A DNA stretch of 64,000 nt, from NCBI GenBank assembly GCA_026707585.1, contig JAPOWQ010000001.1, positions 1-64,000 of the forward strand, given 5' to 3'. Shown one piece after another: positions 25,201 to 31,892 of the stretch. This DNA is from Chloroflexota bacterium. Lineage in GTDB: Bacteria; Chloroflexota; UBA11872. The notes under the pieces were generated by a model that saw only the letters and a program-made list of their open reading frames with translations, made no database searches and had not been told where the DNA came from. How positions within the stretch are numbered: the first letter of the stretch is position 1; the number at the start of each line of letters is the position of its first letter. A program made the position numbers and the translations under genes.

Positions 25201-25340
25201 CTGATCGAACCCTGCTACCTGGCGGCTATTGCCCCAACCTTAGCCCTCTGATCGAACACACCCCGGCACACCCACCGCCGCCGAGCGTCCAGATACCCGC
25301 CGCCAACAGCCTCAAGCCCAATCGCTTAAGCTGGAGCGTT

Positions 25341-28268
<2,928 letters not shown>

Positions 28269-28306: not shown

Positions 28307-29272
28307 GTGGACGGTCTCGGCAGCGTCATCTCGGTAATCGCGGTTCCCGTCCTCTATTTTCTTCCATCGATCATCGTCGCCACCAAGGTGCATCCCGAAA
28401 AGACCCTGATCTTCGCGTTGAACCTGCTTCTTGGATGGACCGTAATCTGCTGGTTTATCGCCCTCTACATGTCGCTCTCCCAGAAGGGTGCGGAGGAAAT
28501 CGAAACTCGCCAGGCAGTCGCGGCCATGGCGCTAAAGGGCCAATACGAATCTGAGATCAAAGAGCTTCGGCGCAAGAACCGTGAGCTCTACAGCGCGCAA
28601 AGACCGCAACGGATGGCAGATACATCGCCGCCCGACACGGATCTCTCCAAGCGCGAAGCCGATCTCTCCAGGCGCGAAGCGGAACTGGACAGTCTGAAGT
28701 CGGAATACGAGGAAAGACTGCGCGCGCTCGCCGAAGAGCGCCGGCAAGCCGCCAGCCAGCCGGAGCCCGAAGTAATCGCGGCGCCCCAGCCCGAGGTCCA
28801 GCCGAGCCCGGCGCCGCAAGGTCCCCCGGTCCCGGCCGAGTACGAAGGCGAACCGCTTTACGTCGTCGTCCCCAGCCAGTTCGAGCGCGTCGTCGCCGAA
28901 ACCCTCAGCCGCCGCTTCAGCGATCACGAGGTCGAAGCCGCGGACGACGCCGGCAGCCGGGGCATCGACCTCAAGCTCTTCGAGTCCGGAGGTAGCCAGT
29001 CGCAGCCATCGGCCATCGTGCAGTGCAAGTTGCAAGCGCACGATCAGGCTGTCGACTACGGGGATGTGAGTGATCTCCGCGGCGCCATGTCGCTGGCCGG
29101 CGCGCGGCAGGCGTATCTGGTCACTACGGGTGACTTCTCGGACGATGCCCGCCGGATGATTGACAGCGGCCACCTTGAGGATCAGGTATTCCTCGTTGAC
29201 GGCATGACCTTCAACCAATGGCGCACCCAGGCCGGCCTCGCCCCCGTCCACTACCTCAGCCTGGCGGGCTGA
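28307..29272 (+). CDS. Superinfection-immunity (Imm-like) membrane domain - coiled coil - Mrr-like PD-(D/E)xK nuclease fusion (copy 1)
   Basis: N-term LYFLPSIIVATKVHPEKTLIFALNLLLGWTVICWFIALY; coiled coil; C-term RVVAETLSRRFSDHEVE..SRGIDLKLF..AIVQCKL..AYLVTTGDFSDDARRM; GTG start. Confidence 0.75.
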   Translation: MDGLGSVISVIAVPVLYFLPSIIVATKVHPEKTLIFALNLLLGWTVICWFIALYMSLSQKGAEEIETRQAVAAMALKGQYESEIKELRRKNRELYSAQRPQRMADTSPPDTDLSKREADLSRREAELDSLKSEYEERLRALAEERRQAASQPEPEVIAAPQPEVQPSPAPQGPPVPAEYEGEPLYVVVPSQFERVVAETLSRRFSDHEVEAADDAGSRGIDLKLFESGGSQSQPSAIVQCKLQAHDQAVDYGDVSDLRGAMSLAGARQAYLVTTGDFSDDARRMIDSGHLEDQVFLVDGMTFNQWRTQAGLAPVHYLSLAG

Positions 29273-29364
29273 TCTGCCGGCGACACCGACGCGCACGTTA
29301 CGCTGGACAACGCCTCAAAGCAGACGTCAAATCCGAAGTCTTGAGCAAGCCGGAAGGAAGATAA

Positions 29365-30288
29365 GTGCTGGAGCCTATCGGGGTCGTCTTCCAGATTGCC
29401 GCGTATATCTCCCTCTATTTCTTACCTACGATAATCGTGGCGACCAAGATTCATCGCGAAAAGACACCAATAATGTTGATAAATATCTTGCTCGGTTGGA
29501 CGCTGATTGGCTGGGTTGTCGCGCTGGTTATGGCGCTGTCTAGCGAGGGGACGTCGGAAGTATTCACCGACCATCAAATGGCGCTGCTGAACCTCCGTCG
29601 AAAGCACGAGCGCGACCTTGAGACGCTGAATCGCAGGCATGAACTGCGCATTGAAACGATTCGTTCGCACGCCGAAGGGCCGGGAAGTCACGTAGACGAA
29701 ATCGAGAGCCTGAAGTCGGAATACGAAGATCGAATCCGTCGAATCGAATCCGAACACCACCGCAAGCTCGGCGAGCTTCAGCACGGCTCCACGGGAAACT
29801 CGGAGCCTGCCAGCAACACGCGGCCACCGCCGGGAACTCAATCCGTTGAGACCGAATACACCGGTGAGCCCCTGTACGTCGTCATTCCAGGCCAGTTCGA
29901 ACGCGTCGTTGCCGAAACGCTTAGCCGGCGCTTCGCCGATGAACAGGTCGAAATCGCCAGCCAACCCCGCAGCAGGGGCATCGACCTCCGGCTATTCGAC
30001 TCCGGCGGAAGTCGGACCCAACCGTCGGCAATCGTGCAATGCAAGTTACAAGCGCACGACGATGCCATCGAGTACGGTGACGTGAGCGCCTTGCGCGCTT
30101 CCATGTCACTGCATGGGGCGCAGCGGGCCTATTTGATTACGACTGGCGGATTCTCGGACGATGCCCGCCAGCTGATCGCCGGCGGAAACCTCCAGGATCA
30201 GGTATTTCTCGTGGACGGCATGACCTTCAACCAATGGCGCACCCACGCCGGCCTCGCCCCCGTCCACTACCTCAGCCTGGCGGGCTGA
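29365..30288 (+). CDS. Imm-like membrane domain - coiled coil - Mrr-like nuclease fusion (copy 2)
   Basis: LYFLPTIIVATKIHREKTPIMLINILLGWTLIGWVVALVMA; SRGIDLRLF..AIVQCKLQAH..AYLITTGGFSDDARQL; GTG start. Confidence 0.75.
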   Translation: MLEPIGVVFQIAAYISLYFLPTIIVATKIHREKTPIMLINILLGWTLIGWVVALVMALSSEGTSEVFTDHQMALLNLRRKHERDLETLNRRHELRIETIRSHAEGPGSHVDEIESLKSEYEDRIRRIESEHHRKLGELQHGSTGNSEPASNTRPPPGTQSVETEYTGEPLYVVIPGQFERVVAETLSRRFADEQVEIASQPRSRGIDLRLFDSGGSRTQPSAIVQCKLQAHDDAIEYGDVSALRASMSLHGAQRAYLITTGGFSDDARQLIAGGNLQDQVFLVDGMTFNQWRTHAGLAPVHYLSLAG

Positions 30289-30421: not shown

Positions 30422-30928
30422 ATGCTGGGCCGACTGCTTCGATTGGCTGCGTGGACACATCAGAGGCGCACCGCAGGAAAGTCGGAAGAAATCTATGCTG
30501 GGATAGATCGAGACCGACGAAGTACGCTCAGGTCAATGTTCGGCAAGCTAACGGACGAGACAGAAGACCTTAGACGCGAGTTCAATATTGGCTATTCTGA
30601 GCTTGAGGAGTTTATAAAGCTTGACAAAGAAGAAATAGAGGAATTAAGAAAGATAAATGCCAAGTACAAGCAAGATGTGGAGTGGCTAGAGCTTGAGATC
30701 ATGGCAGAGTACGGACTCGAGAGTGGTGAATTCTATGATCACGGGATCAGTTGTCCAAGCTGTCAAGAAGATTTCGGTTCTGAGTGTGAATGTGAAGACG
30801 AGAATGACCGCTGGATGCGGGATCACGCGATGAGACTAGAGACAACAAATGATAGATATATTATAGAAATTGAATGGTATGGCGACGTGATTAAGGAGAT
30901 TTGGATGCGCTGCTGCATGGTCAAGTAG
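30422..30928 (+). CDS. Unknown AT-rich protein: acidic coiled coil with Cys cluster (start may be 30536)
   Basis: DLRREFNIGYSELEEFIKLDKEEIEELRKINAKYKQDVEWLE...CPSCQEDFGSECECED. Confidence 0.55.
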   Translation: MLGRLLRLAAWTHQRRTAGKSEEIYAGIDRDRRSTLRSMFGKLTDETEDLRREFNIGYSELEEFIKLDKEEIEELRKINAKYKQDVEWLELEIMAEYGLESGEFYDHGISCPSCQEDFGSECECEDENDRWMRDHAMRLETTNDRYIIEIEWYGDVIKEIWMRCCMVK

Positions 30929-31046
30929 CCCAAGTGAGTCAACAGTCGGACTTGCAAATCGTTGCATTAGAGGAGCTAAGCTACCTTGATCATCATGCGG
31001 ATAAGTGTGACTATCAAACTGCATGGCTGATCAGTAGCAGAAGTTG

Positions 31047-31892
31047 ATGACACTGAATCTGCGTTTCGCATCCCAGGCCGCTATTGTCACCGGCGGCGCC
31101 ACCGGCATCGGCGGCGCCATCGCCGAGCGCCTTGCCGCCGACGGCGCCTCCGTCCTCATTGCCGACATCAACGTGGAGGGCGCCAACGATCGCGCCGCCC
31201 GCATCCGGGACGACGGCGGCACTGCCGCCGCCCGCGCCACCAACGTCGGTGAGCTCGACCAGGTCCAGGCCATGATCCAAACCGCCGTCGACCGCTGGGG
31301 CCGCCTCGACATCATCGTCAACAACGCCTATCCGGCCATGGAAGCTATGACCGGCGGCGCCGAAGACATCCCGCCCGATGTCTACGACCGCGCCATGGCC
31401 GTCCTCGTCAAGGCCAGCTACCTGTCCGCCAAGTTCGGCGTGCCGCACCTGCGCAGCGCCGGCGGCGGCAGCATCGTCAACATCTCCAGCATTCATGGCC
31501 TGCTCGTGGCCCCCGGCGCCCTCGTCTACGAAACCGGCAAAGCCGCCCTCATCGCCGCGACCAGACAGATGGCCGTTGAGTACGGCCGCGACGGCATCCG
31601 CGTCAACGCCATCGCTCCCGGCCACATCGTCACCGAGAACATCCAGGCCGGCATCTGGGACGACAACCCCAGCGGCTTCGACTTCTTCACCGCCCAGTAC
31701 CCCGTCGGCCGCTGCGGCCGTCCCCAGGACATCGCCGCTGCCGTCGCCTTCCTCTGTTCCCAGGACGCCTCCTTCATCACCGGCCACACCCTCGTCGTCG
31801 ATGGCGGCCACTCCCTCCAGATCCAGGAAAACTTCGGCGTCGCCCAGGCCCGTTACATCCAGGACCACCCTGACACTCAGCTCCCCTACTGA
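31047..31892 (+). CDS. SDR family oxidoreductase
   Basis: AAIVTGGATGIGGAIAERLAADG, NNAYP, YETGKAALIAATRQMAVEYGRDGIRVNAIAPGHI. Confidence 0.9.
   Translation: MTLNLRFASQAAIVTGGATGIGGAIAERLAADGASVLIADINVEGANDRAARIRDDGGTAAARATNVGELDQVQAMIQTAVDRWGRLDIIVNNAYPAMEAMTGGAEDIPPDVYDRAMAVLVKASYLSAKFGVPHLRSAGGGSIVNISSIHGLLVAPGALVYETGKAALIAATRQMAVEYGRDGIRVNAIAPGHIVTENIQAGIWDDNPSGFDFFTAQYPVGRCGRPQDIAAAVAFLCSQDASFITGHTLVVDGGHSLQIQENFGVAQARYIQDHPDTQLPY

Follow-up and report, generated by a model that had tools for sequence, protein, structure and literature searches.

Two tandem genes in a Chloroflexota genome each join a phage-type membrane hairpin to an Mrr-fold domain. Do they encode nucleases that are held at the membrane and act on phage DNA as it enters the cell, as a first-pass annotation of this DNA had proposed? 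The genes are located in a stretch of 64,000 nucleotides (contig JAPOWQ010000001.1, referred to as the window), which was analyzed together with related genomes (G and L numbers denote genomes and loci).

Organization of the gene pair

Both genes, designated IM1 and IM2, are open reading frames with a common layout of transmembrane (TM) hairpin, charged coil and Mrr-fold domain, and a ribosome-binding-like AAGGGAG sequence is present 5' of IM1. The locus contains the following features.

25335..28268, + strand, uvrA, conserved upstream flank (start approximate)
28307..29272, + strand, IM1 (first copy), 321 aa, GTG start
28352..28477, + strand, PF14373 (Imm_superinfect) two-TM hairpin of IM1 (Pfam)
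28487..28846, + strand, charged coil and Pro/Glu-rich linker of IM1, the most variable segment
28871..29221, + strand, Mrr_cat domain (PD-(D/E)xK fold) of IM1 (Pfam, model)
28967..28969, + strand, Asp221 of IM1, at a catalytic position (replaced by Ala in G004)
29021..29029, + strand, Gln239-Cys-Lys241 (QxK) of IM1 (Lys replaced by Gln in G005/G010 and by Ala in G012)
29365..30288, + strand, IM2 (second copy), 307 aa, GTG start
29413..29538, + strand, PF14373 (Imm_superinfect) two-TM hairpin of IM2 (Pfam)
29539..29847, + strand, charged coil/linker of IM2
29887..30237, + strand, Mrr_cat domain of IM2 (Pfam)
29983..29985, + strand, catalytic-position Asp207 of IM2
30037..30045, + strand, Gln225-Cys-Lys227 of IM2
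30422..30928, + strand, coiled-coil ORF, 168 aa, CPSC motif (window genome and G012 only)
31044..31892, + strand, SDR oxidoreductase gene, conserved downstream flank

IM1 and IM2 are 55-57% identical, the linker having diverged most and the Mrr domain least. IM1 is the ortholog of the single-copy gene of the relatives, and no close counterpart of IM2 was found among the 12 other genomes of the genus. At their 3' ends (29197-29272 and 30213-30288), IM1 and IM2 share a DNA identity of 0.98; gene conversion between them is possible only, because the same end of the gene is well conserved between species as well (0.89-0.96). A small inverted repeat, CAGCC...GGCTG, closes both copies and is also found in several relatives.

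Genomic context and distribution

The fusion gene is present in 8 of 13 genomes of the genus and is located between uvrA and the SDR gene. Seven relatives possess a single copy in this context (7/7 orthologous loci), and two copies are found in the window genome only; the tandem pair, first taken as the form in which the protein is deployed, is therefore not the family norm. In G003, G009 and G011, uvrA directly adjoins the SDR gene, with no fusion gene between them. The gene is thus an accessory one, present in 0, 1 or 2 copies at one fixed site with conserved flanks. Defence-gene neighbours were not found at the homologous loci, which contain uvrA, the SDR gene and other housekeeping genes instead; the site is no defence island.

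The gene always follows uvrA directly on the same strand after a short gap, and this constancy between conserved flanks would suit a host housekeeping or DNA-repair accessory protein, co-expressed with uvrA and unrelated to phages; the PD-(D/E)xK superfamily does include repair nucleases. However, the three genomes named above lack the gene while their uvrA and SDR genes are intact and adjacent, and the gene is far more variable than uvrA, with divergence jumping from segment to segment (see below). We regard such a repair function as unlikely.

Within what was searched, the architecture is confined to one genus. Outside it, no protein matching both halves was detected in a sample of 399 Chloroflexota genomes, and narrow patterns run against 85,462 species genomes retrieved only Chloroflexota MAGs of this genus; the sensitive profile searches reached Chloroflexota genomes, and the restriction to the genus holds for that scope. 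Neither the two proteins nor the family alignment retrieved a relative from viral contigs. Plasmids gave three partial matches (two to the nuclease half, one to the hairpin) and phages 653 matches, none of which reaches 80% query coverage. The 40 phage matches listed (of the 653) all start in the hairpin, and many of them extend into the coil.

The 168-aa ORF with the CPSC motif lies amid conserved DNA between the Mrr and SDR genes and is 89% shared with G012. It belongs to no Pfam family, and its PADLOC match, to LmuB, is weak (E 5e-6). In the window genome and G012, the 5' end of the SDR gene is unlike that in the remaining genomes.

The membrane hairpin and its topology

The N-terminal two-TM block of the Imm family that the first-pass annotation had recognized in both ORFs is well supported. 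PF14373 matches residues 16-57 of IM1 (E 1.5e-14) and 17-58 of IM2 (E 1.2e-14) with 54.0 and 54.4 bits, respectively (curated cut-off, 27.9), PHROG 1039 ("immunity to superinfection") matches both N-termini (E 3.5e-17 and 4e-19), and hydropathy reveals two hydrophobic stretches of 19 residues in each of the family copies.

T4 Imm blocks the DNA entry of superinfecting phages. The likeness to this family consists in a two-helix hairpin that fits the profile and has phage relatives; phage Imm is a small stand-alone protein, whereas the hairpin is here one module of a chromosomal protein. Of the 41 genomes of the class, 25 carry PF14373, usually in a short ORF, and the domain is also joined to unrelated ones (fibronectin type III, DUF2510 regions). 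It is a promiscuous two-helix membrane module in Chloroflexota that phage Imm proteins use as well. As it is common outside phages, its presence is not evidence of action at the site of phage DNA entry; judged from this distribution, it would indicate membrane anchoring rather than exclusion of phage DNA. Examples of such fusions are L067 (1339-2364, - strand) and L025 (1471-2862), with the hairpin joined to DUF2510 (lipoprotein-like N-terminus ahead) and to fibronectin type III. Furthermore, an 87-aa frame with PF14373 as its sole domain (G000:C60:32174-32347; L003, L090) has counterparts in G007, G009, G011 and G012, three of which are without the fusion gene.

The protein would insert into the membrane, with its Mrr domain possibly in the cytoplasm. 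According to charge counts, the hairpin loop has two or three positive charges and one negative (net +1 to +2), while the N-terminus has a net charge of -1 and the 15 residues past helix 2 are neutral to -3, so that the positive-inside rule would put the loop on the cytoplasmic side and both termini outside. A DNA-binding or nuclease domain anchored at the cell surface, acting on DNA during uptake or on competitor or matrix DNA, would accord with this placement and with G384, in which the PF14373 hairpin comes after a lipoprotein-like N-terminus. Yet the placement is a weak one, drawn from short hairpins, the coil beyond the hairpin is rich in Lys and Arg overall (6-8 per 35 residues), and Mrr domains elsewhere are, to our knowledge, intracellular; we consider an extracytoplasmic role very unlikely.

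The Mrr-fold domain and its catalytic residues

The description of a charged coil followed by a C-terminal Mrr-like domain agrees with the Pfam scan, the motifs and the fold. PF04471 (Mrr_cat) covers residues 189-305 of IM1 (E 5e-16) and 175-291 of IM2 (E 1e-15) with 58-59 bits (cut-off, 21), and the GID..., VQCK and VTTGxFSDDAR motifs are present in both copies. The C-terminal domain, folded with a 31-sequence alignment, was modelled with a pLDDT of 87, and the best Foldseek matches of this model are MspJI (E 9e-6, prob 1.00), AF1548, EcoT38I and AspBHI. A sequence profile search of the PDB also gives MspJI (4f0p, E 5e-11), the GVD/QAK of which is aligned opposite the GID/QCK of the IM proteins. 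A PD-(D/E)xK fold is thus supported by both profile and structure. The full-length AlphaFold model (pLDDT 50) was too poor for use. A PDB match of the full-length profile to IF2 was dismissed as chance, and NCBIfam matches (RNase Y, TraB and others) as coil or low-complexity noise.

The IM proteins share the PD-(D/E)xK fold, as well as D...QxK in both window copies, with the type IV enzymes of the Mrr/MspJI type. They differ from these in possessing a membrane hairpin instead of a modification-reading domain (Pfam and NCBIfam scans of IM1 and IM2 revealed no modified-base recognition domain) and in their active site. In 22 other Mrr_cat domains, compared with the 9 family copies, the positions corresponding to D217, D221 and K241 are occupied by these residues in 22/22 cases; Q239 is found throughout and E193 in nearly all domains. 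In the IM family, the first Asp of GDGG(I/V)D (D217) has given way to Ser or Arg in 9/9 copies, and the catalytic Asp or Lys is missing in 4/9, as follows.

L039, 8611-9573 (- strand), D to A
L034, 3079-4020, K to A
L035, 8788-9723 (- strand), K to Q
L040, 9421-10374, K to Q

These losses (D221 to Ala in G004, K241 to Gln in G005 and G010, K241 to Ala in G012) probably represent three independent changes; they were read from MAG sequences, the G012 contig having ~13x coverage and its K-to-A replacement consisting of two base changes. The other five copies, including IM1 and IM2, keep D221, Q239 and K241. The K-to-Q form is still under constraint, as pN is 0.035 and pS 0.29 for the G005/G010 pair in the Mrr_a segment; catalytic loss has therefore recurred under purifying selection.

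DNA cutting by the IM family appears uncertain from these residues, and catalysis throughout the family doubtful. Of the initial claim of a catalytic nuclease domain, the fold and the D221/Q239/K241 residues of the window copies stand, but the loss of D217 in all copies and of D221 or K241 in four weakens it. The Mrr domain might instead be mainly DNA-binding or regulatory, i.e., a pseudo-nuclease that tethers host or foreign DNA to the membrane without cutting. This would fit the replaced residues and the persisting constraint, and Q239, E193, PSAIVQC next to K241 and LQ are invariant within the family despite the catalytic losses; a Pfam match to NA-iREase1 (an "inactive restriction endonuclease" family), which is below the threshold, points in the same direction. 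Against it, the majority of the copies retain the three residues, and active-site residues can be relocated in other PD-(D/E)xK enzymes. On balance, we consider a pseudo-nuclease somewhat unlikely.

Divergence within the fusion gene

Between species pairs, pS is 0.13-0.27 for uvrA and 0.18-0.32 for the SDR gene, while it ranges from 0.00 to 0.76 among the segments of the fusion gene. For G001 and G005, pS is 0.15 in the hairpin, 0.64 in the linker, 0.44 in the first half of the Mrr domain and 0.17 in its second half; the values for G000 and G008 in the same order are 0.43, 0.41, 0.21 and 0.12. The contrasts between linker+Mrr_a and TM+Mrr_b for G001/G005 (Fisher p 2.6e-5, codon counts) and between TM+linker and Mrr for G000/G008 (p 0.001, codon counts) are based on segment boundaries picked after inspection of the data, and their p-values serve as guides. 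No comparable jump was found in uvrA in 75-codon windows.

Topological incongruence of the segment trees is only partly supported. The hairpin (p 0.005) and the Mrr end (2e-5) reject a clade that lacks G005/G010, whereas linker+Mrr_a recovers it weakly; the alternative clade, lacking G000a/G008, is not rejected by linker+Mrr_a either (p-AU 0.22). As the trees are only partly consistent, the argument for exchange is based on the segment-specific synonymous divergence. The pS jumps inside the fusion gene between steady flanks indicate imported segments, for which unsampled relatives would be the source on the simplest reading. By analogy, we infer that this turnover resembles that of conflict genes. 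The patchy presence of the gene, its differing copy number and the exchange of its segments suit a conflict gene more than a repair gene; the uvrA neighbourhood and the missing defence neighbours do not help this view.

Proposed function

Our preferred reading, held tentatively and at slightly below an even chance, is that IM is an accessory, rapidly reshuffled, membrane-anchored Mrr-fold protein of anti-phage interception. The two-helix anchor would place the protein in the inner membrane, where anchor and charged coil would hold the Mrr/MspJI-type domain. There, the domain would meet foreign DNA, most likely phage DNA, on entry and bind it, and the catalytically intact copies, perhaps IM1 and IM2 among them, may cut it. 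That the domain binds or cleaves DNA is a prediction, and so is the role against phages. The original proposal of a membrane-tethered nuclease at the site of phage DNA entry retains its anchor module and nuclease fold, but it is weakened by the promiscuity of PF14373 and the doubtful catalysis. Points against an anti-phage role are the lack of defence neighbours and of PADLOC matches beyond the nuclease part, the absence of copies from viral contigs and of plasmid or phage matches over 80% of the query, the lost Asp and Lys residues, the charge counts and the occurrence in one genus only. In biological terms, interception and DNA tethering overlap, the difference being cleavage. If interception is true, the coexistence of catalytically intact and dead alleles at a single syntenic site would be a natural experiment on the need for cutting.

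Comparison with known systems

SNIPE, a nuclease anchored in the membrane, cleaves DNA while it is being injected and distinguishes phage DNA from that of the host by its location (PMC13190303). The first report of a membrane-anchored DUF4041 defence protein is PMC9519451. In Kiwa, KwaB binds injected DNA without cutting it, and membrane-localised binding suffices (PMC12904381). Nuclease action at the membrane against entering phage DNA therefore has a precedent and, as an idea, is not new.

Of the known systems, SNIPE comes closest to the mechanism proposed for the IM proteins. Each is a single protein with an N-terminal membrane anchor (predicted for the IM proteins), an intervening region and a C-terminal nuclease-type domain, and the likeness extends to domain order and proposed place of action. 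However, SNIPE possesses DUF4041, a GIY-YIG nuclease and one TM helix, whereas the IM proteins have Mrr_cat and two TM helices, DUF4041 is absent from IM1 and IM2 (Pfam, E<=1), and the catalytic residues are not conserved across the IM family. Kiwa (KwaA/KwaB) and Zorya resemble the IM proteins in membrane-localised defence acting on entering DNA, as proposed here, but they are multi-gene systems, and no PADLOC model of either matches IM1 or IM2. The PADLOC candidate PDC-S02 matches the Mrr part weakly (best E 8e-7); the N-terminal ~60% of its profile is unmatched by the IM proteins, and PDC-S02 is itself a candidate only.

PADLOC 2.0 thus contains no model matching over the full length, and the query gave matches to the nuclease part only and no system gene set. 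In line with the initial remark, no named defence system with such an architecture was found in PADLOC, NCBIfam or the literature searched, nor was the combination of Imm hairpin, coil and Mrr domain. If the interception reading is true, membrane-tethered DNA interception as in SNIPE and Kiwa would have arisen a further time, independently, by the joining of a phage-type superinfection-immunity hairpin to an Mrr fold. It is improbable, in our estimate, that all of its parts hold together, i.e., a new membrane-tethered DNA-interception protein with alleles built by inter-strain segment swaps and with dead forms selected because binding suffices.

Membrane-anchored Mrr proteins as such are an already known arrangement in sequence data. 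Proteins with hydrophobic N-terminal helices followed by Mrr_cat are encoded elsewhere in Chloroflexota (L082, L085, L031) and on plasmids (L120 and L121, with Zn_ribbon_Top1), but these have other TM segments without PF14373, a shorter linker, and the Asp and QxK intact. The plasmid genes (L120, 5719-6498, and L121, 5608-6558; Pseudomonas, Thauera) encode TM-Mrr_cat-Zn_ribbon_Top1 proteins with a partial match to PDC-S02, and the Pseudomonas gene is located ~3 kb from an Abi family gene.
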